From assembly GCA_024275575.1 (NCBI GenBank), contig JAJRYV010000001.1:1-64000 (forward strand): DNA of 64,000 bases. The letters run 5' to 3'. The notes below the pieces were generated by a model, which did not search any database, had not been told where the DNA came from, and saw only the letters and a list, made by a program, of their open reading frames with translations. The position numbers were made by a program, and so were the translations under genes. Origin of the DNA: a bacterium. Its GTDB lineage: Bacteria > Zhuqueibacterota > Zhuqueibacteria > Zhuqueibacterales > Geothermadaptataceae. The first letter of the stretch is position 1. Each line of letters begins with the position of its first letter. Shown here one piece after another: positions 36,768 to 62,613 of this stretch.

Positions 36768-38741
36768 ATGCCGCATTATAAAACAGAGAATAAAGTGCCG
36801 TTCGAAAAGGCAAATTATCATAAAACAACTTGCGCCATTCTTTTTATTGTGGCTGTCTTTTTCTTAAATCATGCATTGGCACAAAGCGGCTCAAAGACAG
36901 TGAGTCCATTTGAACTTTTATTGAAAAAATATGACGAGCAGGTAAATCAGGTCTACCGTCTTACAGAGAAATTGGGATTGCCGCACTTACCTTTGCAACC
37001 AACCGCATCTCCTGTTACAGCGTCTCCCCTTGATTTGTCAATCCACACGTCGCAGATTAATGAGCTTTACTTGCTTAATCCTGGAGATAAATTGGGCATC
37101 CGTATTTCCGGCAAACAGGAAAAATTTTATACTGTGCTCATCTTGCCGGATGGTTATATCTATTTGCCGGCAATCGGCCACACAAAGATTGCCGGACTGA
37201 AACTCGAAGATGCACAAAAAAAAATAGATTATCTGATCGGAAAACGATTGACCCATTTTAAGGTTGAAATTCATCTTACCGAAACGCGGCTGATTCGTCT
37301 TCAGGTCACCGGTGAAGTTTACCGGTCAGGAGAATATCGGGTACCGGTTGGAGTGAGCCTCATAACTGTTTTACACCAGGCAGGCGGTTTTTTACCCGGT
37401 GCGAATATTCGCGATGTCGAAGTTTATTTTGCCGATGGCAGACAGGAAACATTCGATTTGTATGATGCGCTCTATCAAATAAATGCACCGCGGCAAAACC
37501 TGTTTTCAAATGCGCGGATTCGGCTTAAACCTCAGACAGGCTGGTTTGCGATCGATGGTGAAATTCCACGGCCGGGATTATATCAGTTTGGCAGAGAAAA
37601 ACAGCAGCCGCTGTCCACCATTCTTGATTGGGCAGGAACGAAAACAACCAGCACTGATTCACAAATCGTATTCATCAACAGGTTGGTGAAAGGCAATCGT
37701 CGACTCATTCAGGTCGGGCAGAAAAGACGGGGTGAATTTCAAATTCATCGCGGGGATATCATCACTATCGCAACGACTCCAGCTATACCATCCATATTTG
37801 TAACCATCGAGGGAGAAATCTCCCGACCGGGCAAATATAGCTGGGCAAAAGGGTTGTATTTAAGCGATATTATACAAATAGCCGGCGGACTGCGCAAAGA
37901 AGCCGATTCCGCTCACTGCGATGTGACAGTTGCAGGCAGGCAAAATAAAATAATGAGTTTTACCGCTGATCCGGCGGCTGCTTTGTCAAACCCACATGGA
38001 GAAAATGATCCTGAATTCACCGGTGAAACAACGGTTCTCATTCGAAAAAATCGAAACCAGGGGCGTTTGCAATTTGTCACTGTCCGGGGCGAGTTTTATT
38101 TCCCTGGAAAATATGCGATTGAAAAAAACAAAACGCGAATGGCAGATATTCTCGAAAGGGCCGGTGGATTTACCCCATTTGCACAAAAGCGCGGTTTACG
38201 CATAATTCGCAAACAACCGCAATTGTATTCGCAAGCAGACGCGGAACGATTTGACCGGACGATTACAAATCAACTTTCACAAAAGGAATATGAACATTTG
38301 TTGCTCGCAAATGATTTGCGTCAACTGGAACAAATCTCTTTTGAACAAAACCGGCTTTTCGATACGGTTCCGGCCGACGAAAACCCATTATTGCGCAAGG
38401 GAGACATTATTTTTGTCCAGGCAAAAACAGACCTCATTTTCATCGCCGGCAGGGTAGGGCGGCCCGGTGGAGTGAAATTCATCAAGATTTTTAAAATTGA
38501 CGATTATATTAGAAAAGCAGGTGGGTTCACCTGGGATGCGGATAAAAAACATACGAAAGTCATCCGGGTTTCCGGCGAAGTGAGCAAAGCGGACGACAGC
38601 ACAAAACTAATGCCTGGTGATATTATCTGGGTGCCTGTCGGGCAGGGGAATGGTCTCTGGTCAAATTTTCGTGACTTGATGACTGTTGCAATACAACTGG
38701 CAACTATTTTTTTAATTTTTGATCGTGCACGAAAAGAGTGA
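36768..38741 (+). CDS. Wza-like polysaccharide export protein with multiple SLBB domains
   Basis: 657 residues. A signal peptide near 20-38 (FIVAVFFLNHALAQ) is followed by the Poly_export domain (YLLNPGDKLGIRISG, then GYIYLPAIGHTKIAG). About five SLBB-type repeats follow, each with a phrase like VTGEVYRSGEYRVPVG, IDGEIPRPGLYQFG, IEGEISRPGKYSW, VRGEFYFPGKYAI or IAGRVGRPGGVKF. A C-terminal hydrophobic segment (LMTVAIQLATIFLIF) ends it. It should form the outer-membrane channel or periplasmic conduit for the polysaccharide. The ATG used has no strong ribosome site. It is the first gene of the 20-kb plus-strand locus. Confidence 0.88.
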   Translation: MPHYKTENKVPFEKANYHKTTCAILFIVAVFFLNHALAQSGSKTVSPFELLLKKYDEQVNQVYRLTEKLGLPHLPLQPTASPVTASPLDLSIHTSQINELYLLNPGDKLGIRISGKQEKFYTVLILPDGYIYLPAIGHTKIAGLKLEDAQKKIDYLIGKRLTHFKVEIHLTETRLIRLQVTGEVYRSGEYRVPVGVSLITVLHQAGGFLPGANIRDVEVYFADGRQETFDLYDALYQINAPRQNLFSNARIRLKPQTGWFAIDGEIPRPGLYQFGREKQQPLSTILDWAGTKTTSTDSQIVFINRLVKGNRRLIQVGQKRRGEFQIHRGDIITIATTPAIPSIFVTIEGEISRPGKYSWAKGLYLSDIIQIAGGLRKEADSAHCDVTVAGRQNKIMSFTADPAAALSNPHGENDPEFTGETTVLIRKNRNQGRLQFVTVRGEFYFPGKYAIEKNKTRMADILERAGGFTPFAQKRGLRIIRKQPQLYSQADAERFDRTITNQLSQKEYEHLLLANDLRQLEQISFEQNRLFDTVPADENPLLRKGDIIFVQAKTDLIFIAGRVGRPGGVKFIKIFKIDDYIRKAGGFTWDADKKHTKVIRVSGEVSKADDSTKLMPGDIIWVPVGQGNGLWSNFRDLMTVAIQLATIFLIFDRARKE

Positions 38742-38762
38742 AAATATGGGCCATTGCTTTCA

Positions 38763-40019
38763 ATGACGCGAATAGATAAATATGAAAATATCGATTTAAG
38801 AACAGTGCTGAAGTTTTTATGCACAAGCCGTAAACAACTGCTCGCTATCGCATCGTCTGCGCTGTTTCTGTTTTCACTGCTCTGTCTTGTTATGCCACAC
38901 AAATTTGCAGCCACGGCAGTCATCATGCCGCCGCAACAGGAAACCAGCCCGTTCCATCTGCAAAACATCAATGCTTCTCCGCTGGCGCTACTGGCGCTGC
39001 AAAACGCCCTTGATTCAGGTGAATTGTACATCGATATTCTGCAAAGCGAGCGGGCGGTGCAAGAAGTTTTAAAGACAGAACTGGCACGTGGTGGAGAAGC
39101 GACAGACTTGCTGGAATATTGGCATGTGGAACGCCTGCAGGATGCCATTGAAACGCTGCGACAGGCCACAGTCATCGATAAGTCACCTGCCGGTTTGATC
39201 AGTGTAAAAATCATTTTAGACGATGCTGAACTTGCCGCACAAATTGCCAATACTTACTTTGCCGTGCTCGATTCAATTCTGCAGCGGCAAAACCGGCAAC
39301 AAAATGCGGCAACGCGGCGCTATTTGCAAACGCAATTGCAAAGCAACTCCGCAAAACTGCGCGCCGCCACTGACAGCCTCGCTTTTTACCGTTCGCGTTA
39401 CAGAATTATTGCTCCGGCTGATCAGGCAACAGGCATTTTAGGTCAATTGGCAGAGCTCAAGAGCAAAATGATCACGAAAGAAATGCAAATTGAAATGTTT
39501 AAAAATTCGATGCAGGTGGATAATCCTCAACTTTTGCTGGCGCAGGAGGAACATATCGCGCTACAACGACAATATAACAAGCTGCAAACAAAACAAGATG
39601 GTGATAACGATGTTTTTGCATCTTTGTATGTTTTGCCCCGGCTTCTCGCTCGTCTCGCCGATTTGGAACGCGAAACCAAAACGCTCGAGCTCGTCTGGCA
39701 GTTTTTAACTGAACAATTGCAGCGCACGAGATTTCAAGAGCAACAGAACATGCCGGTGATCCATTTTCTCGATCGCGCAATACCGGACGAAAAGCCGGTC
39801 TGGCCCAAGCCATTTATCGTGATCCCGGTCGGTGTATTTGCATGTACTTTAATCGGTATCGTTTTGCTGTTGGCTCACAAGTTTATCACATTTTCCCAGG
39901 ATGACGAGAAAAACAGCAGGGATGAATATGCCTCAGGTTACCCCCAAATTCATCGTGTTGAATCTTCCGATTTGCAAACACCGTCGGTTTCCCGGGAAAC
40001 TGATATTCAAAAAAATTAA
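38763..40019 (+). CDS. Wzz-like chain-length determinant / polysaccharide co-polymerase
   Basis: About 418 residues. Two membrane helices (near 22-42 and 345-367) flank a long periplasmic region rich in heptads (residues 160-320). MPPQQETSPF and PVIHFLDRAIPDEKPVWPKP before the second helix are typical of Wzz/PCP proteins. No tyrosine-kinase domain is fused, and no separate BY-kinase is in the locus. It sets the polymer length in concert with the SLBB export protein. ATG 38763 was preferred to TTG 38754. Confidence 0.85.
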   Translation: MTRIDKYENIDLRTVLKFLCTSRKQLLAIASSALFLFSLLCLVMPHKFAATAVIMPPQQETSPFHLQNINASPLALLALQNALDSGELYIDILQSERAVQEVLKTELARGGEATDLLEYWHVERLQDAIETLRQATVIDKSPAGLISVKIILDDAELAAQIANTYFAVLDSILQRQNRQQNAATRRYLQTQLQSNSAKLRAATDSLAFYRSRYRIIAPADQATGILGQLAELKSKMITKEMQIEMFKNSMQVDNPQLLLAQEEHIALQRQYNKLQTKQDGDNDVFASLYVLPRLLARLADLERETKTLELVWQFLTEQLQRTRFQEQQNMPVIHFLDRAIPDEKPVWPKPFIVIPVGVFACTLIGIVLLLAHKFITFSQDDEKNSRDEYASGYPQIHRVESSDLQTPSVSRETDIQKN

Positions 40020-40034: not shown

Positions 40035-41762
40035 GTGTTTCCCCATTTAACCACCCACTGTTTGATCATCTCTTTGCTGGTTTTCTGCTCACCTGTATCA
40101 AAAATACAGGCTCAAAATATTGATGTCGAATCGAATCATCCGGTTTATAATTTCATCGATTATTTGGAGACCCGGGGTCTGACAAATGCGGTGATCAGCA
40201 CGACAAAACCATTGAGCCGTCGCGAAATCAGCCGCCTATTGAAAAATGTTTTGAATAGTAAAAAGAGCGTCCTCAACTCCCGGGAGTTGAAATTAGTGAC
40301 TGCGTTTCGTGCAGAATTTATCGATTTTTCACATGTTCAGGCAGTGGTGAGTAAACCTTATCCTGTTAAATTGCAGACGATTCTTAAAACGGCACATCTA
40401 TCTCATACAGTAATATTTAAAGACTATCGATTTTTATTTTTAAAAATTGACCGGGATTACAGTATTGCAGCGAATCCATTGTTTGCATATTCCGCCGGCG
40501 AATCGGTACTTGATTTACCCGGAAAAGTCAATCTGGTAAAAAGATCAGGCGGGCTGCAATTGCAGGGAACCATCGGCCGGCGAATGAGTTATTTTGTTGA
40601 TTTTCGCGATACCCGGGAAAGCGGCAACAAGTATTTCCCTGTCGGGCACCGTCTTGCCTGGCCGGGTTATGGTTACGCAGAAGGTCGTGGCGATCAGCTT
40701 TTCCATGATGAAGCCGTGGCCTTTATCAATGTTGATTTTAGAAAGTTGACTGTTCAACTCGGCAAAAACAGTAACCGCTGGGGCCCGGCCTTGTCCGGTG
40801 GGCTTATTTTAAATGATGCGGCCACTTCCTACAATCAGATGCGTTTGCAGGCCAAATTCGGCAAGCTGCGGTTATCTTACTTTCACGCCGGGCTGCAAAC
40901 TTACCCGCGAATTGTGGTTGATTCCTACACCAGCAATTCCGTTGCAAGAGAGAGTTTTGCTGAAAAATATATTGCCGGCCACCGACTCGAATTTAAACTG
41001 CATCGACGATTACTCCTGGCGTTGAATGAAACTGTCATCTATGGTGAGCGCGGTTTGCAATTAGCCTACTTAAACCCATTGATGTTTTTTCGCAGTGCGG
41101 AGCATTTTTATGGTGACCGGGACAATGTCGCCCTGGGCGTTGATGTGAAGTTTTTGCTGAAAAGAAATATCCTCATTTATAGCGAATTGCTTTTGGACGA
41201 TTTTTCCTGGGGCAGGTCAGGCACAAGCTGGTACGGCAATAAACAGGCCTGGCTTGCCGGTTTTAAAACAACAAAGGTTGTGCGCTCAATACCGTCGATG
41301 GTGCAGTTCGAATATGTGCGTATTCGTCCATATGTTTACAGTCATACTTTTCCGATTAACACCTACACGCATTATAACACCAGTCTTGGTAACCTGCTTC
41401 AACCAAATTCTGAAGCCTTTTTTTTGAATTTTCGATTCTACCCACGCTGGAATACTGTTTTTGATTTATTGCTTAAACGAACGCTGCATGGCGATAATCC
41501 CGGTAGTCGTAATGTCGGAGGCCGGATTGCCGATGCATTTGATGTACACGATTCCCACACAGCCAAATTTCTTGACGGGATACTGGAATCGCGCCGGGAA
41601 ATCAAATTCACAACAACGATATCCCTGTATTTGAATTTCGACTGGTTTGTTAGTGGTCTCTGGCAATCAAGCCAAAAAGGGCAGAGCTTTGATGCAAATT
41701 TTTTCACTTTTAACACCGGGTTCAGATTAAATTTCCATGAAAAACATTCGAGATCAAACTAA
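40035..41762 (+). CDS. Wzi-like capsule assembly outer-membrane protein
   Basis: 575 residues. A signal peptide (CLIISLLVFCSPVSKIQAQ) is followed by an N-terminal helical part (YLETRGLTNAVISTTKPLSR) and a long beta-barrel with many aromatic-ended strands. GRRMSYFVDFRDTRESGN and LGKNSNRWGPALSGGL are the Wzi family phrases. Wzi anchors or assembles capsule at the cell surface. It starts with GTG at 40035, and its end overlaps the next gene by 26 bases. Confidence 0.8.
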   Translation: MFPHLTTHCLIISLLVFCSPVSKIQAQNIDVESNHPVYNFIDYLETRGLTNAVISTTKPLSRREISRLLKNVLNSKKSVLNSRELKLVTAFRAEFIDFSHVQAVVSKPYPVKLQTILKTAHLSHTVIFKDYRFLFLKIDRDYSIAANPLFAYSAGESVLDLPGKVNLVKRSGGLQLQGTIGRRMSYFVDFRDTRESGNKYFPVGHRLAWPGYGYAEGRGDQLFHDEAVAFINVDFRKLTVQLGKNSNRWGPALSGGLILNDAATSYNQMRLQAKFGKLRLSYFHAGLQTYPRIVVDSYTSNSVARESFAEKYIAGHRLEFKLHRRLLLALNETVIYGERGLQLAYLNPLMFFRSAEHFYGDRDNVALGVDVKFLLKRNILIYSELLLDDFSWGRSGTSWYGNKQAWLAGFKTTKVVRSIPSMVQFEYVRIRPYVYSHTFPINTYTHYNTSLGNLLQPNSEAFFLNFRFYPRWNTVFDLLLKRTLHGDNPGSRNVGGRIADAFDVHDSHTAKFLDGILESRREIKFTTTISLYLNFDWFVSGLWQSSQKGQSFDANFFTFNTGFRLNFHEKHSRSN

Positions 41763-42915
41763 AACCCAGGCATCCTTTCGGCCTCTCATCATTTCTGATT
41801 TTTATCCATCAATGCGATGTCCCTATGAAGGTTTATGCGTTAAGGAACAACTCGAACACATGCCCGGAGGGGAAAGTGCCATGCTCATTTCTCCAGCAAT
41901 AAATTATCCGCCATTGCCACGCTATCGATTTCTGCGTGCTCGCAGCATTGACCGTGGTTGGCAGGGCGCTGGAAATAATGTTTATAGAATCCCGGCCTTT
42001 TACCTGCCGGTTATCGGTGAACACATCATCTTGCGCCGATTGATTAAGGAATCGATAAACTTTCTTCACTGGACTGATAAGTCATTTAACCTGATTCACG
42101 CCAACTGGGCGTATCGTAGCGGAGCTATTGCTGCGGCTGTCGCAGAATATATCGACGTTCCTTTCGTGTTGACGATCTGGGGGTCTGATATCGATATCTG
42201 GCTGCGCGAAAGGCGGAAGCGACAGCACATTTTAGAAGTCTTTTCGAAAACCGGCGCCTTGATCGTACAAAATAAGGCACATCGGAAAAAACTGATGGAA
42301 TTAGGAATTACGGCAAAAAAGATATTCCTCAATCCACTCGGCATCGATACCGAAAAATTTACACCCGCGGTGAACAAATGTCGCAATCAAAAATTTACCC
42401 TCGGCATAATCGGCAATCTTTTTCGGGACAAGGGGCATCATGATGTTTTTCGGGCTTTGGCGATCTGTACATCGGACGCCCGGTTGACAATCATCGGCGA
42501 TGGGCCGGAATTGAACAATTTGCGAAGCCTGACACATCAGCTTAAAATCAACCATCGTGTTAAATTCGTCGGGATGAAACCACCACAGGAAATCCCGGCT
42601 TTACTGCAGAAAATCGATGCTTTGATCATCGGCAGCTATCATGAGGGCGCGCCTAAGGTATTGCTCGAAGCATTGAGTTGCGGCAAACCGGTGATCAGCA
42701 CAAAAGTTGGTTTTGCCCCGGAAATCATCGAACCGGACTGCGGTCTTCTCGTCGATATCGGCCAAATCGATGCGATGGCGGGGGCGATCGATACGGCAGT
42801 ATTGCAAAAATGGTGTGCGCAAGAGATTCGCAGTTTCGCCTTGCCCTACGACTGGCGATTTTTTAAACAACGTCTGCGCTCAATTTATGAATATGTTCTC
42901 AAAGAAACAAAATAG
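41737..42915 (+). CDS. Glycosyltransferase family 4
   Basis: 392 residues, GT-B fold. Acceptor half: [19 protein letters not shown] and TIWGSDIDIW. Donor half: IIGNLFRDKGHHD, then IIGDGPELNNL and the E-x7-E block EGAPKVLLEALSCGKPVIS. It adds a sugar from a nucleotide-sugar donor to the growing glycan on the cytoplasmic face; the sugar is not predictable. It overlaps the Wzi gene by 26 bases and the flippase gene by one base, which suggests coupled translation. Confidence 0.88.
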   Translation: MKNIRDQTKTQASFRPLIISDFYPSMRCPYEGLCVKEQLEHMPGGESAMLISPAINYPPLPRYRFLRARSIDRGWQGAGNNVYRIPAFYLPVIGEHIILRRLIKESINFLHWTDKSFNLIHANWAYRSGAIAAAVAEYIDVPFVLTIWGSDIDIWLRERRKRQHILEVFSKTGALIVQNKAHRKKLMELGITAKKIFLNPLGIDTEKFTPAVNKCRNQKFTLGIIGNLFRDKGHHDVFRALAICTSDARLTIIGDGPELNNLRSLTHQLKINHRVKFVGMKPPQEIPALLQKIDALIIGSYHEGAPKVLLEALSCGKPVISTKVGFAPEIIEPDCGLLVDIGQIDAMAGAIDTAVLQKWCAQEIRSFALPYDWRFFKQRLRSIYEYVLKETK

Positions 42916-44129
42916 TGAGTTTTCTAAAAGACAGCCGTGATTTGTTGCTGATCCGAGGCTTGACCGTCTTATCCCAAATGCTGGGTGGGGTATTCTTAGC
43001 GCGTATCCTGGGACCGCATGATCGCGGAATCTTTGCTTTGCTCATCCTGCTGCCAATACTCTGCGGGCAAATTGGTATTTTTGGTCTCGATATTACAAAT
43101 GCTGTTTTCACCGGCCGGCAGTATAAAAATATCCAGGGCCTGATTCGTCAAAGTTTGTCCCTGCAATTCACCATCGCAGCAGTGTTGGCCTTGCTGTTTT
43201 TTATCTTTAGCCATCGAATCAGCGCTGCAACTGGTCTGGGCGATTACATTATTGAATATCGTTTTCTGGCCTTGATCATCCCGCTCATTCTTTTTGTGCA
43301 AAACGGCGGCAGTGTACTCTGGGGGCAAAAAGAATTTCGTGTTTTTGGGATTTTGCAGTTTTTGCGCCCGGCGAGTTTTCTCGCCGGCATCAGTGCACTG
43401 GCATTTGTTCATTTAGCCTCGATTAAGATTTTTATCAGCATTTTTATTGCGTCGTTTATCGTGCCATCGGCTTTTCTTGTTTTTTTCAAAAAAATAAAAC
43501 CGATATGGATATGGCCTCGCGGTATTGCGCTTAAAAAAATAATCTGTTTTTCTTTCCCTGTCTGGCTCGCCCAGATAAGTGGTTTTTCCTATTTTCGTCT
43601 CGATTTGTTGATATTAAATCATTGGTGGCCGACAAAAATATGTGGGTATTTTGCAGTCTTGTTTTTTATCGCTGAAGCTGTTGGCTTCATCGGCAGTACC
43701 CTTGGAGAAGTTCTGCTGCCCTACACAAAAATATGTAAAAAAAACAAAAATACGCAACTCCTGAGTCAAGCCTTGCGGTTGAGTCTGTCGATAACGATTG
43801 TAATGGTCGCAGTCATCGCGTTATCAGCTCAATACATGATCAAAATTATTTTTGGTACTGGTTTTTTACCGATAATTCCTGCGTTATACTGGTTGTTGCC
43901 GGGCATCGTTTTTCGTAACGGCGTTAAAGTTCTTTCATTATGGCATATCGCTTACGGGAATTTGTATTTTAATGCAGCGCTAAATTTCGCTGGCATTGCC
44001 TTAATTACAGTCGCAAACGTGATATTCATTCCAGCAAACGGGATGATCGCTGCAACCGCAATCAACAGTGTTATGTTCTTTTTACTTTTTCTTTGTTCAG
44101 TCTTATATGCCTGCAAATGTGCATCTTAG
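42915..44129 (+). CDS. Wzx-like polysaccharide flippase
   Basis: 404 residues with about twelve membrane helices. It begins FLKDSRDLLLIRGLTVLSQ and GGVFLARILGPHDRGIFAL, the standard N-terminus of the polysaccharide transporter (MOP/PST) family. It flips undecaprenyl-linked repeat units to the periplasm. The GTG start at 42915 shares its first base with the TAG stop of the glycosyltransferase. Confidence 0.88.
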   Translation: MSFLKDSRDLLLIRGLTVLSQMLGGVFLARILGPHDRGIFALLILLPILCGQIGIFGLDITNAVFTGRQYKNIQGLIRQSLSLQFTIAAVLALLFFIFSHRISAATGLGDYIIEYRFLALIIPLILFVQNGGSVLWGQKEFRVFGILQFLRPASFLAGISALAFVHLASIKIFISIFIASFIVPSAFLVFFKKIKPIWIWPRGIALKKIICFSFPVWLAQISGFSYFRLDLLILNHWWPTKICGYFAVLFFIAEAVGFIGSTLGEVLLPYTKICKKNKNTQLLSQALRLSLSITIVMVAVIALSAQYMIKIIFGTGFLPIIPALYWLLPGIVFRNGVKVLSLWHIAYGNLYFNAALNFAGIALITVANVIFIPANGMIAATAINSVMFFLLFLCSVLYACKCAS

Positions 44130-44167: not shown

Positions 44168-45535
44168 ATGCCCAAAGTTTTAATGATTACTTATTACTTT
44201 CCCCCTGTTGCCGGCGTCGGAGCACAGCGAAGCTTGCGTTTTGCGCGCAGTTTGTTGCATTTCGGTTGGGAGCCCCACGTTCTTACACCGCGAAATCGGT
44301 ATTATGTTTTGAGTACCAAAGAACAAGGGTTCGATTTCGGCAATTCACTCACCATACATGAAACATCGGCTATTTTTCCTGTGCAATTCCTGCAAAAAAA
44401 ACTGGATCATAAACCAAATACCGGACTATTTTCACCACAAAAAAATAATTTCTTTTCAGCGATCAGGAATTTGCTTTTCAGCCTGTTGTGCAAACCGGAC
44501 GAATATCGTGGCTGGATTCCCTTTGCCGTGCGCGAGGGACGAAAAATTATCCGGCGCCACGATATCGATTTAATTTATTCCTCCGGTCCGCCAAATTCTT
44601 GCCACATCATCGCACAGCAGCTCAGGGAAAGCCTGAAAATTCCCTGGGTGGCTGATTTACGTGATTTATGGAATATGTTTCCCCATAGTTACAATCCTTT
44701 CAATTGGCGCTGGCGGCGGAATTACGATGAACGAATCGAGCAAACCATTTTAAGCCATGCAGACCAGATCATCACAACTTCAGAAGAAATGCGTCTTGAA
44801 CTGATGGAGATTCTCCCAGAATTCTCGAAGCCGGCATTCCATAAGATCACCAACGGATATGATTCAAGCGATTTCACTTTTAACAAAAATGGTGAAAAAA
44901 ACAAAATACTGACCATTTCTCATGTGGGGAACCTTTTTCCCTGGCGTTCACTGCAGCCATTGTTAAAAGCGTTGCTGGTTTTATATGAACAGCAGCCCCA
45001 ATACAGGAATCGTTTGCTGATAAAATTGGCCGGATTAATTCCCCAGGTAGAAATCGAATTGATCAAACATCATGATCTGCAAGATTCCATTCGTATCGTT
45101 GGTAATTATTCCCATGAAAAAGCGCTTTCACTGATTCAGCATTCTTCTGTTCTGTTACTTTTAACAGGAACTTTAAAACAGGCGCGACAAATGATTCCAG
45201 CAAAAATCTTTGAATATGTCGCTGCTGAAAAACCGATTATCAGCATCGGACCCGCCGGCGCATGCTCGCGTTTGATTGCTGCAGAGAAGTTGGGTTGGCA
45301 TTTTGAACCGGATAAAACGAACGATATAACGATGCGACTCATTCAGCTATTGAAAGATTTCGAAAGCGGCGGCATCTGTTTTACAAATACACAAAAATTC
45401 AAATTTGAACAAATAAATTTAACAAAAAAACTGGTTGCGATCTTCGGTAAGTGCCTTGACCCGCGAAGGCAGGCCATCTCACTCCCGACGCCGGTGACTT
45501 ATGGTTATCAAAATAAAAATGATTCCACCCGATAG
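44168..45535 (+). CDS. Glycosyltransferase family 4
   Basis: 455 residues. VLMITYYFPPVAGVGAQRSL at the start and ISHVGNLFPWRSLQPLLKAL, RIVGNYSHEKALSLIQ and PAKIFEYVAAEKPI in the donor half mark a GT4 of the type common in polysaccharide loci. VADLRDLW is the acceptor-side signature. Sugar specificity is unknown. The next gene starts six bases after its stop. Confidence 0.85.
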   Translation: MPKVLMITYYFPPVAGVGAQRSLRFARSLLHFGWEPHVLTPRNRYYVLSTKEQGFDFGNSLTIHETSAIFPVQFLQKKLDHKPNTGLFSPQKNNFFSAIRNLLFSLLCKPDEYRGWIPFAVREGRKIIRRHDIDLIYSSGPPNSCHIIAQQLRESLKIPWVADLRDLWNMFPHSYNPFNWRWRRNYDERIEQTILSHADQIITTSEEMRLELMEILPEFSKPAFHKITNGYDSSDFTFNKNGEKNKILTISHVGNLFPWRSLQPLLKALLVLYEQQPQYRNRLLIKLAGLIPQVEIELIKHHDLQDSIRIVGNYSHEKALSLIQHSSVLLLLTGTLKQARQMIPAKIFEYVAAEKPIISIGPAGACSRLIAAEKLGWHFEPDKTNDITMRLIQLLKDFESGGICFTNTQKFKFEQINLTKKLVAIFGKCLDPRRQAISLPTPVTYGYQNKNDSTR

Positions 45536-45541
45536 TGAATT

Positions 45542-46978
45542 ATGACGACGACAGCATCACTTTCTCCAGTCTTTGAAAGCACAATTTTTATCGCCGTCAG
45601 CAGCGTCGTGCTCATCCGGGAGCGAAAAGAACTCAATTCTGCTGTCTTCAGAGCATTATGGCCGATCATCTGTTTGATCTTTCTGTTTTTTGCCTCGGCA
45701 TATACAAATATTTCAAGCCCTGCAGGACCGGCTGAAAAGTATTATTCAATTTATTACCATTTTTTTGGAGTCATCTCAATTTGGGATATAGGGCTGGCGA
45801 CCGTACTTTTAGCGGTATTGATGAAAAAAAAACTTTTCTTCAGCTTTGGATATTGGCAAGGACTGCCGGCGCTATTTTTACTCCTGGTTCTAATTTTTTG
45901 TGCAGGATTGATGCATTCTTCCGCCGGAATATCGCCGTTTGGTCCCTCGGAATTCCGGCGCGTGCTTATCGCATTTACCGGACCTGTATACATGATTTCA
46001 ATTTATCTCCTGGTAAAAAACCTGATAACGAATCAAATGGAATTGAAAGTGATCCTGAATTTTCTGAAAAGCATGGTTCTCGCATTGGCGATTTATGCGC
46101 TGTTACGTTTTTTTCTGATTTTAACCGGAACAGTGCAAACAATGTGGTTGTTTGCACTGCCCGTCATCATTTATGACCGCTTGATATTTTTTTACATCCC
46201 TGTTTTTATATGGCTGATCAACGCCCTGACAGGGGAGATACAGAAAACGAAAATCTTAACCTTTATCGCTATCACCGGTTTATTTCTCATTCTCATTAGT
46301 ACGCGACGGCTGAATTTATTAATCATCTGCTGCGGCATATTTATTTCTCTGGCTGGTACTGGTTTTTTAATGGAAATAAATATTCGCAAAAGTCTCAATT
46401 TCAGCAGAAAATTTATCCTGCTTCCTATAATTGGCATAATCGCATTGTCTTTTGTCGTTCCCCGATCGCTGACAAAACTGATATCCGTTGTCAAATCTTT
46501 GGATCTTTATTCACAAACCGGACGGCACCACAGTGGTGAAATGCGTATTGCCGAAAGCAGGAACCTGCTTGCCAATCTGGAATCTCGTCGTTATGCGCTA
46601 CTCACGGGCTACGGTTACGGTACCTTTTGGCAGCAGAAACAAAACCAGCCACTCGATCCTTTGACAAAAAAAATCCGCCCATTCGGTAACTGGTTTTCAC
46701 AATTTCATTTGCCTTATATCTCGATTTTTTATCGTTTCGGCTTGTTGGGAACATCTGTGTTTTTAATCTGGTATTTCTCCTGGTTCGCAAATATAGTCGG
46801 CAGGCTAAAACGAACATGTCCAAAGGCACAGGTTTTCGCACTTTCAGCTTTTGTATTTCTCATGCTTCTGTTACCAGCCACCTTAGACAGCTTAAATCCC
46901 ACATCCTGGATTTGTTGTGGCGGAATAGCTGCAATCCTTGAAAAATTATTGTGTGAGGACATAAATCATACATACTGA
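45542..46978 (+). CDS. Wzy/O-antigen-ligase-like membrane protein
   Basis: 478 residues, about eleven helices. A long loop near residues 325-390 holds TGRHHSGEMRIAESRNLLAN, GYGYGTFWQQ and GNWFSQFHLPYISIFYRFG. The Gly-Tyr-Gly and the conserved His in the loop are typical of Wzy/WaaL proteins. It polymerises the repeat units or ligates the chain to a carrier; the sequence alone does not decide. It is the only such protein in the locus, so Wzy is the simpler reading. Confidence 0.78.
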   Translation: MTTTASLSPVFESTIFIAVSSVVLIRERKELNSAVFRALWPIICLIFLFFASAYTNISSPAGPAEKYYSIYYHFFGVISIWDIGLATVLLAVLMKKKLFFSFGYWQGLPALFLLLVLIFCAGLMHSSAGISPFGPSEFRRVLIAFTGPVYMISIYLLVKNLITNQMELKVILNFLKSMVLALAIYALLRFFLILTGTVQTMWLFALPVIIYDRLIFFYIPVFIWLINALTGEIQKTKILTFIAITGLFLILISTRRLNLLIICCGIFISLAGTGFLMEINIRKSLNFSRKFILLPIIGIIALSFVVPRSLTKLISVVKSLDLYSQTGRHHSGEMRIAESRNLLANLESRRYALLTGYGYGTFWQQKQNQPLDPLTKKIRPFGNWFSQFHLPYISIFYRFGLLGTSVFLIWYFSWFANIVGRLKRTCPKAQVFALSAFVFLMLLLPATLDSLNPTSWICCGGIAAILEKLLCEDINHTY

Positions 46979-46997: not shown

Positions 46998-47894
46998 TTG
47001 TGTGCCATCATCGTGCATTACGGCAAAGTTGAAGTGACTGAAAAATGTGTTAAACATTTGCTTGCTTGCCGTCCCAACCCCTGGATCATGCAAGTTGTGA
47101 TTATTGATAACACAGGAAAAAAAGTTTTGCAGCATAAACTTTTACCTGACACAGGCACCGGATTGCACATCATTTCCAACGATGCCAACAAAGGTTATGC
47201 TGCTGCGCTTAATTGCGGATATCACTGGTCTCGGTCTATCGGTGCAAAATATTGTCTGTTCATCAATAACGATTTGCAACTCCTGCCTGAGGCATTGGAG
47301 AAACTTTATTATGCTGTACAAACGATACCCACTGCCGGGTTGTGGAGCGGGATGATTACTTTCCAAAACCAACCTGACAAACTCTGGTTCGCTGGAGGAA
47401 AAATCCAACCTGCGCTTTGCCGAACAAGGCATTTTCACGACCCAAAAAAGAGAAAGGGTGATTTTATTTCAGGTGCACTGATGCTGGTTGACTGCGATGT
47501 CTTTAACAAAACCGGGCTATTCGAGACTGATTATTTTCTCTATTTTGAAGATGCTGATTTATGTCTGCGCAGCAGGATAGCCGGTTATCTACCATACACC
47601 ATCACCGAGGTGATCGCCAGACACGATATTGGTGCGATCGATAAAAATGATTACACCTCCGATTATTTATACTACCAGACCAGGAACCGGCGATATTTTT
47701 TCTTGCGCTATGGTGGGCGTTTTTACCAAATCTATTTTCAGGTAGTCAATTTGTTCTGCTATGTTTTGTTGCGCTCGACACTCGTTCTGTTATATTCATC
47801 CACCGGCAGGAAAATCAACAACTGCAGGGCAATTTTTAGTGGTTACTGGCACAGTTTAAAAAATATCAAAAATGCACGACCGGTCGTTCGATGA
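46998..47894 (+). CDS. Glycosyltransferase family 2 (rhamnosyltransferase-like)
   Basis: About 298 residues. AIIVHYGKVEVTEKCVKHLL, NDANKGYAAALNCGYH, LFINNDLQL and ETDYFLYFEDADLCLRSRIA (the ED motif of the acceptor base) identify a GT2. The TTG at 46998 is the only standard start. The reading frame is open from 46965, and GAGG lies seven bases before ATC at 46965. So a rare start codon and about eleven more residues are possible. It overlaps the next gene by four bases (ATGA). Confidence 0.8.
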   Translation: MCAIIVHYGKVEVTEKCVKHLLACRPNPWIMQVVIIDNTGKKVLQHKLLPDTGTGLHIISNDANKGYAAALNCGYHWSRSIGAKYCLFINNDLQLLPEALEKLYYAVQTIPTAGLWSGMITFQNQPDKLWFAGGKIQPALCRTRHFHDPKKRKGDFISGALMLVDCDVFNKTGLFETDYFLYFEDADLCLRSRIAGYLPYTITEVIARHDIGAIDKNDYTSDYLYYQTRNRRYFFLRYGGRFYQIYFQVVNLFCYVLLRSTLVLLYSSTGRKINNCRAIFSGYWHSLKNIKNARPVVR

Positions 47895-49146: not shown

Positions 49147-52100
49147 ATGAATTCAAAATTAAAACTTCTCTTAATTCAACTTACATTTTTCAACAGTATT
49201 TTGTCATCTCTATTCGCCGGTGCAGGTCTGCAGGAAATAACCCGAAATAAACCTGATCAATTGCAATTCCGCTTTAATTTGTCTGTACGCGAGCTGAATA
49301 ATGCTGCTGATTCCAGCATGAAAATGATTAATGGTGACAAATTCATCAAAGACAATTCATCGCCGATTTTTTTTCTGCCGCCATCAGGTATCGTCAACAT
49401 TCAGATAAAAATCGATGGCAAGCCATTGTCTGAGCGTGAAGTCAGCCAATTTGCAATTTTAAAAAATCACGGAATTTGGCGCGGTTTTCATTTCGGCGGT
49501 TTGGTTTTTGACACAACAAAACGTCCAATTGCAGGGGGATCGGTAATCGATGTCTCTATCGCCTACCCGTCTGCAAAAGCAGGCCGTGAAATCGATAATT
49601 TCGAGCGGAAAGTTTTATCGAATGTATTAAACCTCGATTATGCTGCTTATTTTCGTGAACGCAGCGACAAGACAATTGTGCACAATTCTGTTTATCAACT
49701 CAGGGAAAGACTCAAAATTGTCGTACGAAAAAACGGATTTTATCGCCTGACCATTGACGAAATAAGCGCTGCCGGGTTCAATGTCGATCTATCTAACGCC
49801 GCTGGTTTTCATCTTTACAACCGCGGTTTGGAAATCCCTCTTTTTATTCAGCAAGCGGACAGCGCCGTACTTTCCCCAGGCGATGCCATTTTGTTCTATG
49901 GCAAACGTATAGCCGGTGATTCGACCTGGTTCAACGATGAAACTGAAGACAATATCTACCGGTTGTTGCAAGATCAATCGCCCGGCAAACGATTTCAGGA
50001 AAAATTGAGTTTTGATACCGGCTCGGTTGCGATGTATCCGGGGTTTCGCCAGCGGTTGCATTTCGAAGAAGATAAAGCTTACAATCACGGCGAGAATGAT
50101 CAGGACTTATATATCAGCACAATAGTGGCGGGGGAGGGCTGGTACTGGCGGCGTTTTGGACCGGGCAGTTACATTCAAAATTTCGTGTTACCGAATTTCA
50201 TCGAATCGAGTGATCCCTGCAGTCTCGCTGTATATTTTCGCGGCAAAACAAGTAATGTACTTAAACCAAATCATCATTTGATTTTGTCGGTGAACGGACA
50301 TGCATTGGCGGATACACTTTTTTCTGACAATGCGGATTTGGTTTTGCGATTTGCCGTGCCCTCCAGCTGGCTGCAAAATGGTACAAATTCACTTCAAATC
50401 AGCCTGCCCGGCGATACGGAAATGCCCAATGAACGAATCGATTTCCACTGGCTCGATGTCGAATATACGCGCTCATTTGTCGCCAGTTCGCACCAGCTCG
50501 GGTTTTCTCAACCTGCAGGCGGTACCGGCGACAGCATCAGGTATCAAATTTCCAATTTTCATGAAAATGAAGTTCATCTCTTCGATTTGGCCCGAAGCGA
50601 GAAAATTGTAAGGGTCAAAACATCACAAACCGGAGATTCATTTTTCATTAATTTTGTTGCGGAAAAAACCGACTCTGCACATTTTTTCGCTGTTTCAGCC
50701 GAGGGGCTCAAAAAACCCGACAGCATTTACATCGACCAGCCATCGGATTTAAAATCACCGGGGAATGCGGCAGATTTAATCATAATCACACATAAAAACT
50801 TCGAAGCGGCTGCGGTGCGACTGGCTTCACACCGCCGCCAACATTCCGGGCTGCGCATTACCGTCGTGGATATTGAAAACGTTTATGACGAATTTAATGA
50901 TGGCATTTTCGGAGTAGCAGCCATCAATAGATTTTTAAAATATGCATATGCAAACTGGCAATCGCCGGCGCCGTTATATGTCGTGCTTTTCGGTGACGGC
51001 ACCTGGGACCCCAGAAAAGTTAGTGGCAGCGCTGTTCACCAGACATTTATTCCCGTCTGGGGAAATCCGGTCAGCGATAACCGGATCGTCTGTTTTGACG
51101 GGCCGGATGATTTTCTTCCGGAAATGATCATCGGCCGGATTGCAGTGGAAAGAGCTGATGAAGCCGAGGCTGTCGTCGATAAAATCATCAGTTATGATAT
51201 CTCTCCTGTGCCGCCTTTCGTGAAAAAATTTGTTTTTTTAAATGGCGGTATCAATAATTATGAACAGTTCCTTTTTCGTGCGCAAAGTGAGGAGCTCATC
51301 AGTCGTTATGTCGAATCTGATCCCGTTGCAGGGCAACCTGTACGCATTTACAAGAATACGCAGGGCAGAACTGTAGGAGAACTGCAACCGCTGATTCTGC
51401 AAGCGTTTGCGGATGGGCTTGGTGTTTTTTCGTTTTCCGGGCATGCGGCAAGCAGTACCTGGGAGACGATGCTGCAAAATGCCGACATCCCAAAAATACA
51501 AAATGCGGGTAAATTACCGGTAATTTTCAGCATGACCTGCCATACGGGTAAATTTGCCGAACCACGGCAGGTGAGTTTTGCCGAGGAATTTTTGCGCTTG
51601 CCGGAAAATGGCGCGGCGGCATTCTGGGGCACCAGCGGCTGGGGGTGGATTACGCAAGACGGGTGGCTGCTTGACGGTTTGTATCGCACGATGGCCAGGG
51701 ACAGCGTGCGGGAAGTTGGAGCGTTGGTGACTGCGGCGAAAATCAAATTATATCAAAGCCGTTTTGAATACAGCGGCAGCAACGTCAATGTCATCGATCA
51801 ATATACGCTTTTTGGCGACCCTTCAATGCAGATAAAGTTACCACGGCAACCTGATTTTTACCTGTCGCCACAAGCTATTCGTACCGAACCGGTGCAATTG
51901 CGCGAGTCGGATTCTCTGATTGTGATCAAGATTTATGCGGAAAATATCGGTCTGAGCTCTGTAGATTCAACCGAAATTGCTCTGCGTGTCTTTGATGATA
52001 GCGGGCAACCGGTTTTTTCTGCACAAAAAAAAGTCGGCCCGGTGGGATTGATCGATTCGCTTTCTTTTGAATGGCCGGGCAGCGATCGCCGCGGTGCCTA

Positions 52101-54351
52101 TAAAATTGAAGCTACAGTCAATGCGTCTGCTTCGGTGAGCGAACAACGGATCGACAATAACAGTGTTTCGCAAAGCATCTATTTTTATTCATCATCACTG
52201 ACGATTGCCAAACCGAAGCCGCTCACGCAAATCGCTGAAAACCGGCCCACACTTTATGTTTATAATCCAGAGCTTGCCGGGCAGGAAACATCCATCTATG
52301 AATTTGAAATTGACACAATAGAAACTTTTTCTTCACCATATTTATTGCAATCGGGATCAGTTGATGAACAAAAAGTGCGTACCGGCTGGAAAGTGACAAA
52401 AACATTGACCAATGGTCTCCATTATTGGCGTTGCCGCAGAGTGACCGCGTCTTCACAGAGCCGTTGGGAAGAGGCTTCATTCTGGCTTGAAAGCGCGGGA
52501 GTACAACAAGCCTTTCGCCAGAGCGGCATATTTTGGCCCGCGGAAAACATCACTTACGCATCTTCCAATGATGGAATCACGCTGCCTCTTGACGAAAGCA
52601 AGACACGCATTTTGCAAGTCCGGTCACTGGGGTTCTGGCAGGGCACAGGTCATTGCGATTTAATAATCGATGGCCTGAAAGTGAATTTTAATAACGACTT
52701 GAGAGGACATAATTTCGTAGCGCTGGCGCCGGTATCGCAAGAGATTATCAGCGGGCCGCTTAATTTTGATACTTATGCATCTCCCGCTGCCGCCGACAGT
52801 ATGGCGGATATCCTCGAAAACCTGCCACCGCGTACGGTTCTGCTCATCGGCATACACGATGAGGGCAGTGTTTCAATGACTGTGCGGGCGCAGCAAGCGA
52901 TCACGCAGTTTGGCAGCGCCCGCATCGCCGAAATCGGCTTTCGTGATTCCTGGGGAATGATTGGCATCAAGGGAATGGCGCCCGGGCAGGCTGCGGAAGT
53001 TTTGCTAAAAAACGGTCTCGGACAAGCCGTAGCAAACGATACCCTCCGACAATACAAAACAGTCGGTGAACTCAGCTCCAATGCAATCGGCCCGGCGCTG
53101 GCCTGGGGGGAATTACAGGTCAAAAAGGCCCTGCGACATCTCGTTTATACAAATTCTACTTCGCCGGAAGCAAGCAGTACTGTTTTTGTCGATGGGCGCG
53201 CCGGAAAAAATGGAAGCTGGCTGCCGATCACACAGTTTCAGAATATCGGAACGTTAAGTCTATCCAATGTACCGGCAACTTCATATCCCTACATTCGCCT
53301 GCGCGCACTTTTCGAAGATGATGACGGGTTGGATTCATCTCTTTTGGAAAAATGGTTGCTCGGATTTCAACCGGCAGGGGATATCGTCATCGACCCGGCT
53401 TCGTTGCATCTTGCTCAGGACTCTTTACTCGCCGGTGAAATGATGCAGCTTTCTGCAACGATGTATGTTTTCGATGAATTGGCCACAGATTCGGTTACAG
53501 CCGGATTGTATCGTGTTAAAGATGATGCCGGTTTGCAATTGTTGCAGCGACATAAAATCAAAATCCCGGATAATGATATTTATGATTTTATTTTTAATTT
53601 CAGTCTGCAAACACAAGGTAAAAATCGCTTGCGTATCAGCGTCGATGATATGAATATCATCCCGGAGATGAGTGAACAGAATAATTTCTATGAAATTGAC
53701 GCTTTTATCGCTCGCGATGCCCAGGCCCCGGAAGTGCGAATTCTGGTTGATGATCGCGAAATCATCGATGATGATTTCGTTTCATCAGCGCCCGTTATCA
53801 TTTGTGATATCTTCGATGAAAGCCCGGCCGCTATCCGTGATACCAGTAGTTTTATCATCAAGCTGGATAACCGGCAGGTCTATTTCAATACACCGGATAA
53901 CAGACTCGATTTTCAGCCGATTCAGGAAGGCCAACTCCGGGCCCGTCTCCTGTTTCAACCCCAATTAAAACCCGGAGAGCATTTGCTCACGGTGCAGGTC
54001 AGTGATATTTTCGGTTATCACAGCACAAAATCGGTTAAGATGCGCATTGCTGAAAAATTCACCCTGCAGCAGGTGATGAATTATCCGAACCCATTTGAAA
54101 ACGAGACCGAATTCACCTTTTTCCTTACACAAGAGGCGCAATCCGTAATCATTAAAATATTCACAGTCGCCGGAAGGTTGATTCGTACAGTCGAAGATTT
54201 TAGTCCTAAAATCGGCTTTAATCAGGTCTATTGGAATGGTCGCGATGAAGATTATGATCTTTTGGCAAATGGTGTGTATTTATTTAAGATAATCGCACGA
54301 TCGGAGGGCAAGACGGCCGAATTTATAGGTAAAGTCGCTATTGCACGCTGA
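49147..54351 (+). CDS. PorU-like C25 peptidase / T9SS sortase-family protein with FAM3/ILEI-like domain
   Basis: 1734 residues, exported (signal segment FFNSILSSLFAGAG). Residues near 540-880 are a peptidase C25 (gingipain) domain. His766 (SFSGHAASS) and Cys798 (SMTCHTGKFAEP) form the catalytic pair. A CARDB-like domain follows near 910-1015. Residues about 1155-1280 resemble the FAM3/ILEI (GG) domain: GHCDLIIDGLKV, NFDTYASP, TVLLIGIHDEGS and EIGFRDSWGMIGIKG. More beta domains follow, and a FlgD-like C-terminal sorting domain (YPNPFENETEFTF onward) covers about 1644-1734. PorU is the T9SS sortase that joins cargo to surface glycan. Its place inside the polysaccharide locus is unusual and suggests a dedicated role. 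Confidence 0.82.
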   Translation: MNSKLKLLLIQLTFFNSILSSLFAGAGLQEITRNKPDQLQFRFNLSVRELNNAADSSMKMINGDKFIKDNSSPIFFLPPSGIVNIQIKIDGKPLSEREVSQFAILKNHGIWRGFHFGGLVFDTTKRPIAGGSVIDVSIAYPSAKAGREIDNFERKVLSNVLNLDYAAYFRERSDKTIVHNSVYQLRERLKIVVRKNGFYRLTIDEISAAGFNVDLSNAAGFHLYNRGLEIPLFIQQADSAVLSPGDAILFYGKRIAGDSTWFNDETEDNIYRLLQDQSPGKRFQEKLSFDTGSVAMYPGFRQRLHFEEDKAYNHGENDQDLYISTIVAGEGWYWRRFGPGSYIQNFVLPNFIESSDPCSLAVYFRGKTSNVLKPNHHLILSVNGHALADTLFSDNADLVLRFAVPSSWLQNGTNSLQISLPGDTEMPNERIDFHWLDVEYTRSFVASSHQLGFSQPAGGTGDSIRYQISNFHENEVHLFDLARSEKIVRVKTSQTGDSFFINFVAEKTDSAHFFAVSAEGLKKPDSIYIDQPSDLKSPGNAADLIIITHKNFEAAAVRLASHRRQHSGLRITVVDIENVYDEFNDGIFGVAAINRFLKYAYANWQSPAPLYVVLFGDGTWDPRKVSGSAVHQTFIPVWGNPVSDNRIVCFDGPDDFLPEMIIGRIAVERADEAEAVVDKIISYDISPVPPFVKKFVFLNGGINNYEQFLFRAQSEELISRYVESDPVAGQPVRIYKNTQGRTVGELQPLILQAFADGLGVFSFSGHAASSTWETMLQNADIPKIQNAGKLPVIFSMTCHTGKFAEPRQVSFAEEFLRLPENGAAAFWGTSGWGWITQDGWLLDGLYRTMARDSVREVGALVTAAKIKLYQSRFEYSGSNVNVIDQYTLFGDPSMQIKLPRQPDFYLSPQAIRTEPVQLRESDSLIVIKIYAENIGLSSVDSTEIALRVFDDSGQPVFSAQKKVGPVGLIDSLSFEWPGSDRRGAYKIEATVNASASVSEQRIDNNSVSQSIYFYSSSLTIAKPKPLTQIAENRPTLYVYNPELAGQETSIYEFEIDTIETFSSPYLLQSGSVDEQKVRTGWKVTKTLTNGLHYWRCRRVTASSQSRWEEASFWLESAGVQQAFRQSGIFWPAENITYASSNDGITLPLDESKTRILQVRSLGFWQGTGHCDLIIDGLKVNFNNDLRGHNFVALAPVSQEIISGPLNFDTYASPAAADSMADILENLPPRTVLLIGIHDEGSVSMTVRAQQAITQFGSARIAEIGFRDSWGMIGIKGMAPGQAAEVLLKNGLGQAVANDTLRQYKTVGELSSNAIGPALAWGELQVKKALRHLVYTNSTSPEASSTVFVDGRAGKNGSWLPITQFQNIGTLSLSNVPATSYPYIRLRALFEDDDGLDSSLLEKWLLGFQPAGDIVIDPASLHLAQDSLLAGEMMQLSATMYVFDELATDSVTAGLYRVKDDAGLQLLQRHKIKIPDNDIYDFIFNFSLQTQGKNRLRISVDDMNIIPEMSEQNNFYEIDAFIARDAQAPEVRILVDDREIIDDDFVSSAPVIICDIFDESPAAIRDTSSFIIKLDNRQVYFNTPDNRLDFQPIQEGQLRARLLFQPQLKPGEHLLTVQVSDIFGYHSTKSVKMRIAEKFTLQQVMNYPNPFENETEFTFFLTQEAQSVIIKIFTVAGRLIRTVEDFSPKIGFNQVYWNGRDEDYDLLANGVYLFKIIARSEGKTAEFIGKVAIAR

Positions 54352-55316: not shown

Positions 55317-55427
55317 ATTCGTGATACAAAAGGAATAATTTACATCCCCTTCGCGTTGAAGTAGCACCGTTTTGTGTTAATATTGCCAAAGCATGCAATG
55401 CAAGTATGTAGTGGAGGAGAGAAGTTG

Positions 55428-56906
55428 ATGGAGCTATTGTTCGGGGTGCTTTTGGGTTTATACGTCTTGGCGTTAATCGGGTTGGGTTTATTCGGTATTC
55501 ATAAATATGTGTTGATTTACCGGCATCATAAATATAGCAAAATCCCGCAAGAACAACCACCGGTTCCTGAAAATTGGCCAAATGTATTGGTTCAATTGCC
55601 GGTTTATAATGAGAAATATGTACTCAAACGGCTGATCAAATCCATCGTTAAGATGGACTACCCTAAAGACAAGTTACACGTGCAGGTTCTCGATGATTCG
55701 GTAGATAATACCAGCCGTCTGGCTATGCGTTTAACCCGTATCCTGAAAGAAAAGGGGTTGCGAATAGAACATGTACGCAGGCCGAATCGCCTCGGCTTTA
55801 AAGCCGGGGCTCTCGAATATGGTTTAAAAATCTCTGATGAAGAATTTATCGCAGTTTTTGATGCCGATTTTGTCCCGAAACCCGATTTCCTGAAACAGAC
55901 CATTCCCCACATTATGGCAAAAAAGGAGATCGGTATGGTACAAACGCGCTGGGGACATTTGAATCTAAATTATTCACTGTTGACGAAATTGCAGGCTTGC
56001 TTTCTCGATGCGCATTTTCTCATCGAGCATTTTACCCGCAACCGTTCGGGCAAGTTTTTTAATTTTAACGGCACCGCCGGCATCTGGCGTCGTCAGGCGA
56101 TCGTCGAAGCCGGTGGCTGGCAACACGATACGTTGACCGAAGATCTCGATTTAAGCTATCGATCTCAATTGGCCGGCTGGAAATTTATCTTTTTACCGGA
56201 TGTGATCGCACCGGCCGAACTGCCCGTGGATATGAACGCTTACAAAAATCAGCAGCATCGCTGGGCAAAAGGCTCCGTTCAAACGGCAATCAAACTGCTG
56301 CCAATGATTTTGAAATCTAATCTGTCGTTTGCTATACGGCTTGAGGCATTTTTACATCTCGGCAGTAATTTTGCCTACCTGCTCATGGCAGTACCGGCCT
56401 TTCTGCTGATTCCCATGCTGAATCTGCAAATAGCTTTTTCGGTTAAATGGACAATTATTCCATATCTGGTGATGTTTTTTACTGCAACCCTGTCGGTTAT
56501 TTTTTACTATGCCTATACGATAAAATTGGTGCATAACCGGCTATGGCCGCATATTTTATATGTTCCGGCGATGATGGGGTTAGGTATCGGCCTTTCGGTA
56601 AATAACGGTAAGGCCGTTCTCGAAGCCCTGGTTGGAATTAAAACCGATTTCTTGCGCACACCAAAATTTAAAATAGAATCTCGCAAGGATTCATGGAAGA
56701 AAAAAACGTACAGACCGCAGGCATCCCGGGTCCATTTCGTTGAATTGATCCTGGCTTTATATTTCACTGCAGGGATGAGTTATTTCTACTTAAATGAACT
56801 ATATCTGTCGATACCATTTTTTATATTATTCCAATTTGGCTTTTATTATATCGCATTTTCCAGTTTTTTTCAGAGCAGTCGATTTGTTGGAAGTAAAAAG
56901 CTTTAA
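55428..56906 (+). CDS. CESA/CSLA-like processive glycosyltransferase family 2
   Basis: 492 residues. ATG 55428 is set by GGAGG at 55413. A membrane helix at 3-23 precedes the GT2 domain. Its motifs are VFDADFVPKPDF (DxD), TLTEDLDLSYR (base) and QQHRWAKGSVQ (QxxRW). Three or four helices close the protein. The order is that of cellulose-synthase-like and mannan-synthase-like enzymes, so a beta-linked homopolymer or a lipid glycoside is possible. No PilZ domain or BcsB partner is present. It may be outside the operon proper, since a 111-base gap precedes it. Confidence 0.85.
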   Translation: MELLFGVLLGLYVLALIGLGLFGIHKYVLIYRHHKYSKIPQEQPPVPENWPNVLVQLPVYNEKYVLKRLIKSIVKMDYPKDKLHVQVLDDSVDNTSRLAMRLTRILKEKGLRIEHVRRPNRLGFKAGALEYGLKISDEEFIAVFDADFVPKPDFLKQTIPHIMAKKEIGMVQTRWGHLNLNYSLLTKLQACFLDAHFLIEHFTRNRSGKFFNFNGTAGIWRRQAIVEAGGWQHDTLTEDLDLSYRSQLAGWKFIFLPDVIAPAELPVDMNAYKNQQHRWAKGSVQTAIKLLPMILKSNLSFAIRLEAFLHLGSNFAYLLMAVPAFLLIPMLNLQIAFSVKWTIIPYLVMFFTATLSVIFYYAYTIKLVHNRLWPHILYVPAMMGLGIGLSVNNGKAVLEALVGIKTDFLRTPKFKIESRKDSWKKKTYRPQASRVHFVELILALYFTAGMSYFYLNELYLSIPFFILFQFGFYYIAFSSFFQSSRFVGSKKL

Positions 56907-59267: not shown

Positions 59268-59421
59268 CCAATGCCGTATCGAATAACACCGGGCTGACTT
59301 TAATGTTTCAAGCCGCCGGGCCGACCTGTGATCAATTATCATCATGCCCGGTGCTGAACCCCACCTCTCATTGTTGATAAAAACATTTCCGAATTTAATA
59401 AAAATTCAGGAGGATTTTCGT

Positions 59422-62400: not shown

Positions 62401-62613
62401 CCCCGGCGAAGTGATGTTTCCGTGAAAATTTTTAACGTTCTCGGAATCGAAGTGCGAATGCTTGCGGACAGGCAGAACTTTCCGCCGGGCATAAATACAA
62501 TAGTCTGGGACGGGCGTGATAATCAGGGGCGGGAATTAAATTCAGGCGTTTTTTATGTTCGTTTAAAGGCGCAAGAATTTACCGGTATGAGAAAAATGAT
62601 TTTAATCCGATAG
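59422..62613 (+). pseudogene. Secreted ExeM/NucH-like nuclease with T9SS C-terminal domain, split by an in-frame TAA
   Basis: The start at 59422 has AGGAGG eight bases upstream, and a signal peptide ends near NSYAQ. Domains in order are: lamin-tail-like (LTD) domain, Big_5-type Ig domain (TPANATTAVAVAANIEIIFS), an OB-type nucleic-acid-binding domain, and an endonuclease/exonuclease/phosphatase domain (IGSLNIERLM, ILGIQEVGG, LNVHLRS, LGDFNAF, SDHDGI). Then come an FnIII-like domain and the FlgD-like sorting domain (NFPNPFNPKTTIEFAL). The same frame is interrupted by TAA at 60640-60642, after residue 406, in the OB part. Without the stop the product would be 1063 residues. A nonsense mutation, a sequencing error or readthrough are the options. 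Confidence 0.8.

Follow-up and report, generated by a model that had tools for sequence, protein, structure and literature searches.

An ILEI domain-containing C25 peptidase encoded in polysaccharide operons of Zhuqueibacterota, a candidate T9SS sortase

RESULTS

A C25 peptidase gene within a polysaccharide locus. The window analyzed here is a stretch of 64,000 nucleotides, positions 1 to 64,000 of contig JAJRYV010000001.1. Positions 36768 to 56906 are occupied by a run of genes on the same strand, and this run encloses the gene of a protein with both a C25 peptidase domain and an ILEI domain, designated ILEI-C25 here (Table 1). The presence of Wza-, Wzz-, and Wzi-type proteins suggests an exported glycan of the capsule or EPS type, as opposed to A-LPS or an LPS side chain. 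The WecA-like protein also matches TIGR02380, at 112 bits and under the cut-off of 326. Farther along the window, a Big_5 protein with a weak ExeM/NucH nuclease match (59344-60642) adjoins an Exo_endo_phos nuclease with a T9SS-type C-terminus (60739-62613); the two frames may be parts of a single extracellular nuclease or separate genes.

The genome (4.96 Mb, 97.7% complete) harbors a canonical PorU on contig C74 (839.9 bits against a cut-off of 420), SprA on contig C52, PorZ on contig C26 (265 bits), and 141 CTD matches at an E value of 0.01 or below. A first-pass annotation, made from the letters of the window, had placed the gene between glycosyltransferases and a WecA-like initiator and away from other T9SS genes, and the genome agrees with it on both points. 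Given this separate canonical PorU, the PorU-like and sortase-like protein of the window is a second enzyme of the kind in the genome. The idea that ILEI replaces an absent PorZ was rejected, as PorZ-like proteins are widespread in the phylum and this genome encodes one.

Table 1 Features of the ILEI-C25 gene and of the surrounding polysaccharide locus
Feature	Coordinates	Strand	Basis
Wza-type polysaccharide export protein (Poly_export + SLBB)	36768..38741	+	
Wzz-type chain-length protein	38754..40019	+	
Wzi-type capsule assembly outer-membrane protein	40035..41762	+	
Family 1/4 glycosyltransferase	41737..42915	+	
11-TM protein, probably Wzx-type flippase	42915..44129	+	Sequence character; no Pfam match
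Glycosyltransferase	44168..45535	+	
12-TM protein, probably Wzy-type polymerase	45542..46978	+	Sequence character; no Pfam match
Family 2 glycosyltransferase	46998..47894	+	
Family 1 glycosyltransferase, 69 bp upstream of ILEI-C25 gene	47891..49078	+	
ILEI-C25 protein, 1734 aa	49147..54351	+	Sec-type N-terminus by eye (MNSKLKLLLIQLTFFNSILSSLFAGA)
Peptidase C25 (PorU/gingipain type) catalytic domain, residues 545-895	50779..51831	+	Pfam, E 5.1e-73
Catalytic His766, motif FSGHAASSTW	51442..51444	+	His in 88/88 aligned C25 domains
Catalytic Cys798, then clade-specific His799 (SMTCHT)	51538..51540	+	Cys in 87/88 aligned C25 domains
ILEI (FAM3/POMGNT1-stem/GG) domain, residues 1186-1276	52702..52974	+	Pfam, E 1.9e-17
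Arg1186, equivalent to POMGNT1 Arg129 (GlcNAc contact)	52702..52704	+	Alignment; residue role PMC9802357
Asp1238, equivalent to POMGNT1 Asp179 (GlcNAc contact)	52858..52860	+	Alignment; residue role PMC9802357
Arg1266, equivalent to POMGNT1 Arg207 (GlcNAc contact)	52942..52944	+	Alignment; residue role PMC9802357
T9SS type A C-terminal sorting domain (CTD), residues 1646-1720	54082..54306	+	TIGR04183
WecA-like polyprenyl-phosphate sugar-1-phosphate transferase (initiator), 24 bp downstream of ILEI-C25 gene	54375..55316	+	PF00953
Family 2 glycosyltransferase	55374..56906	+	

Domain content and similarity to sortases. The window protein belongs to the C25 family by Peptidase_C25 (PF01364; 246.9 bits against a cut-off of 23) and to the ILEI family by PF15711 (64 bits against 27). 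Its C-terminal region matches the CTD model TIGR04183 (26.8 bits against 23) and falls under the cut-off of the Pfam model PF18962 (21.8 against 27); further Pfam domains are CARDB and a FlgD-like/T9SS C-terminal domain. The first-pass annotation had called a PorU-like C25 protease here with the catalytic pair His766/Cys798, and both calls hold: the limits of the reading frame were exact, the case is stronger than had been claimed, and the pair recurs across the aligned C25 domains, the one row missing from the cysteine count being masked. It had also pointed to a FAM3/ILEI/GG-like stretch near residues 1155-1280; Pfam confirms the identity of this stretch and narrows its limits (Table 1).

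When the whole protein was searched against PDB sequences, PorU (6za2) was matched over residues 182-900 with an E value of 7.7e-28 and gingipain R much more weakly (E 4e-7), together with FAM3C (5lc3; E 1e-7) and POMGNT1 (5ggj; E 2.5e-5); FAM3B was also matched by the ILEI part. The best NCBIfam matches are sortase models, of which the PorU model NF033707 aligns to residues 188-901, that is, to the N-terminal part and the catalytic domain. Neither equivalog cut-off is reached, the scores being 346.8 of 420 bits for PorU and 334 of 450 bits for PorU2 (NF052324, a putative T9SS sortase). By sequence, the protein thus belongs to the C25 and ILEI families but neither to PorU, judged by the curated cut-off, nor to PorU2 in its modelled form. 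One relative with two ILEI domains (L076) prefers the PorU2 model to the PorU model and reaches 447.4 of 450 bits. No match to the exosortase family was found for the window protein in Pfam or NCBIfam. AlphaFold models had mean pLDDT values of 38 for ILEI alone (alignment of 1 sequence) and 36 for residues 541-1305 (alignment of 4 sequences), and both were discarded.

These similarities suggest that ILEI-C25 most likely works like a T9SS sortase. The scores under the PorU and PorU2 cut-offs count against this reading, as does a gingipain-type Propeptide_C25 in the one double-ILEI relative tested, which would also fit a plain protease. The main rival explanation is a gingipain-like surface protease, held on or maturing in the capsule or EPS of its operon through ILEI. 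Such an enzyme would lack sortase activity and would cleave proteins in that layer, those of the matrix or the export complex for instance. The C25 family does include true proteases, and an ILEI tether would also account for the genetic linkage and residue conservation described below. We nevertheless consider this explanation rather unlikely, since the N-terminal and catalytic regions resemble PorU far more than gingipains, the sortase models are the best NCBIfam matches, and L076 lies nearly at the PorU2 cut-off.

ILEI-C25 proteins form a separate clade of C25 enzymes. In a tree built from the C25 domain alone, and thus independent of ILEI, all sampled ILEI proteins fall into one clade (support 100/99). 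Two further groups stand apart, canonical PorU (100/100) and C25 proteins of a third type, approximately 1600 aa long; the topology largely tracks taxonomy. The active sites differ, with SMTCHT or a close variant in the ILEI clade, mostly TCD, TCE, or TCS in PorU, and TCF or TCY in the third type. The Cys-His motif is found in every ILEI-C25 protein readable at the site and is absent from PorU and from the other clade of C25 enzymes.

The third C25 type lacks ILEI (L102-L120) and in several genomes is encoded within roughly 15 kb of sprA, the gene of the T9SS translocon (examples are G044:C315, G054:C178, G037:C13, G036:C16, G021:C5, and G038:C36). It falls under the PorU cut-off (L107, 350 of 420 bits) and is possibly a further sortase or a translocon-linked protease. 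Canonical PorU-type genes occur as tandem pairs at L092 and L100 (G034 and G067).

Distribution and architectures of ILEI-C25 proteins. Among 82 genomes of the phylum, ILEI was found in 53 and C25 in 78, and most ILEI matches share a long frame with C25. Two architectures are present. A single ILEI domain follows the protease in the window's order and in families f15 and f16, and two ILEI domains flank the protease in the remaining sampled families of the class. At L064 (about 8000-13914; G042), a double-ILEI C25 gene is present as two frames of 413 and 1485 aa, the result of a frameshift or of misassembly. Outside the C25 family, ILEI occurs in a T9SS-cargo-like protein with LTD, ILEI, and CotH kinase domains and a CTD (L123:3760-6636; G046:C162), and ILEI frames of similar length are present in G045:C124 (L122) and G056:C108 (L124).

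Matches from Poribacteria and Herpetosiphon were rejected as ILEI-C25 homologs; they are C25 relatives only, and their genomes gave no ILEI match. The plasmid collection searched gave no match, and a search of viral contigs with the ILEI profile gave no relative.

Residues that contact GlcNAc in POMGNT1 are retained in bacterial ILEI. The POMGNT1 stem domain binds beta-GlcNAc via Arg129, Asp179, and Arg207, and GlcNAc is also bound by FAM3C and FAM3A (PMC9802357). A profile of the bacterial ILEI domains matched POMGNT1 best in the PDB (E 4e-25), with FAM3 behind it, so that the ILEI assignment, which the first-pass annotation had left to a profile search, stands at this level as well as in Pfam. 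The three contact residues are kept in 28/29, 29/29, and 29/29 of the N-terminal ILEI copies, where they rank among the top eight columns in conservation, and in 35/39, 33/39, and 34/39 of the C-terminal copies, where they rank 15 to 27 of 115. As this rank is high and not at the top in the C-terminal copy, the conserved residues may instead be structural. Together, the profile match and the retained contact residues support a putative sugar-binding function of ILEI. Two ILEI-C25 proteins, L043 and L044 (G072 and G073), have lost all three POMGNT1-type contact residues from ILEI.

ILEI-C25 genes are linked to glycan genes across the phylum. Up to 20 kb of sequence was compared around 40 ILEI-C25 genes, 21 canonical PorU genes, and 20 genes of the third C25 type, and every open reading frame in these loci was searched with the glycan proteins of the window. 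With the window excluded and a flank of at least 2 kb required on both sides, glycan genes were found within 2 kb at 29/29 ILEI-C25 loci, 0/20 canonical PorU loci, and 0/18 loci of the third type (Fisher P of approximately 1e-13, a value inflated by the shared ancestry of the loci). All 58 glycan genes near ILEI-C25 at these 29 loci lie on the same strand. At 5 kb, the corresponding counts are 20/20, 0/16, and 2/17. Chance synteny was rejected on the basis of the PorU and third-type controls, and the tie to glycan genes that the first-pass annotation had suspected from this one locus thus extends through the phylum. Neighbors unrelated to genes of the window are also largely glycan genes, encoding glycosyltransferases, O-antigen polymerase/ligase-type proteins, nucleotide-sugar dehydratases, and methyltransferases.

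In the window's genus, a glycosyltransferase gene lies upstream and the WecA gene downstream of ILEI-C25; WecA is found directly upstream in most double-ILEI genomes and downstream in two families. As gene order varies between lineages with the linkage unbroken, the linkage has been kept through rearrangement. At one locus (L081), no glycan gene is present in the visible 6 kb upstream and the contig ends downstream; we count the missing upstream gene against a sortase acting on the glycan of its own operon. Three further ILEI-C25 loci without a glycan match stop at contig ends.

Strict membership of an operon beside an initiator and glycosyltransferases, along with Wzi and Wza in the locus, would also suit a Wzi-like glycan-processing or anchoring factor, in which the C25 fold helps to hold the surface polysaccharide and cargo attachment is irrelevant. 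The catalytic His and Cys in every readable member, the T9SS CTD, and the presence of the secretion machinery argue against such a factor, which we regard as very improbable.

Co-occurrence with the polymerase in the window's order. Among the 15 genomes of the order, 6 have a detectable relative of the polymerase at 45542, and all 6 have a strong ILEI match, so that a relative is present in 6/7 strong-ILEI genomes versus 0/8 others. The seventh strong-ILEI genome, without a polymerase relative, is G068, which is 67% complete. G072 and G073, whose ILEI domains lack all three contacts, also have no detectable polymerase relative. As polymerases diverge fast, absence here means that no relative is detectable.

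This distribution bears on the possibility that ILEI-C25 is simply a second PorU paralog that attaches cargo to the surface glycan also used by canonical PorU. In that case, co-regulation and vertical inheritance would account for the position of the gene in the operon, and ILEI would serve only as a structural spacer. PorZ and PorU are indeed both present in the genome, the C25 tree largely follows taxonomy, and the linkage could stem from one ancestral event. However, the linkage has outlasted changes in gene order, the PorU paralogs of the same genomes never have glycan neighbors, ILEI retains the POMGNT1 contact residues, and, within the window's order, every genome with a polymerase relative also has a strong ILEI-C25. 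We therefore consider a second paralog of this kind improbable.

DISCUSSION

ILEI-C25 combines a sugar-binding-type domain with a place in glycan operons across the phylum, and this combination suggests that it probably ties proteins to that glycan. We lean toward the interpretation that ILEI-C25 is a dedicated T9SS sortase that recognizes the glycan made by its operon and attaches cargo to this glycan. Judging from its N-terminus and CTD, the enzyme would be exported by Sec and the T9SS to the cell surface. By analogy with PorU, the Cys/His active site would cut the CTD off some T9SS cargo, and the acyl-enzyme would then be passed to an acceptor sugar. The acceptor would be the polysaccharide of the surrounding operon, not A-LPS, and ILEI (one copy here, two in many relatives) may act in cis as a built-in receptor for it. 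The simplest ligand would be an N-acetylhexosamine, such as the residue presumably added by the adjacent WecA-like initiator.

PorU removes the CTD from proteins secreted by the T9SS and links the C-terminus thus exposed to A-LPS presented by PorZ (PMC8545088, PMC7468200). ILEI-C25 resembles this Bacteroidota sortase (NF033707; 6za2) in its C25 His/Cys pair, its PorU-like N-terminal region, and the surface location implied by the CTD. Unlike PorU, it scores under the model cut-off, forms a clade of its own, carries ILEI and the Cys-His motif, and is encoded in a glycan operon with Wza, Wzz, and Wzi, the true PorU being kept elsewhere in the genome. PorU2 is the best or near-best named match, closely approached by L076 and less so by the window protein. 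Glycan recognition is coupled to the sortase in the PorZ-PorU complex of P. gingivalis as well (PMC8545088), but there a separate PorZ binds A-LPS, whereas ILEI-C25 holds its putative glycan reader within the enzyme, notwithstanding the PorZ of the genome. The POMGNT1 stem, FAM3A-C, and TMEM2 GG domains (PF15711) are of the same family by profile, with Arg129, Asp179, and Arg207 conserved; unlike them, the bacterial domain is fused to a cysteine transpeptidase-type enzyme and sometimes duplicated around it. The exosortase/PEP-CTERM system is alike only in the genetic tie of the sorting enzyme to EPS genes, as exosortase is an integral inner-membrane protein of the EpsH family (PMC1569441) and ILEI-C25 is a C25 enzyme with T9SS signals, predicted to be secreted. 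Our literature search, which left subscription journals mostly outside its reach, found no paper joining ILEI with bacterial C25; nor did it find one on PorU2 with T9SS.

The first-pass annotation had proposed a matched system of cargo and glycan attachment. The identity of ILEI, its contact residues, and the phylum-wide linkage support this proposal in part; its glycan had not been separated from A-LPS and now appears to be capsule- or EPS-like. More tentatively, and as a possibility rather than an expectation, ILEI-C25 may represent a phylum-wide class of T9SS sortases in which ILEI reads the capsule or EPS of the operon and a selected set of cargo is joined covalently to the capsule instead of A-LPS, in parallel with the PorU/PorZ route of the same cell.

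The enzyme and glycan genes occur together over many families, with a sugar-binding-type domain inside the enzyme itself. This makes the choice of glycan by a T9SS sortase directly testable. The ILEI/FAM3 fold, studied in animals as a cytokine-like fold, also gains a clear setting in bacteria, where its partner is likely to be a sugar.
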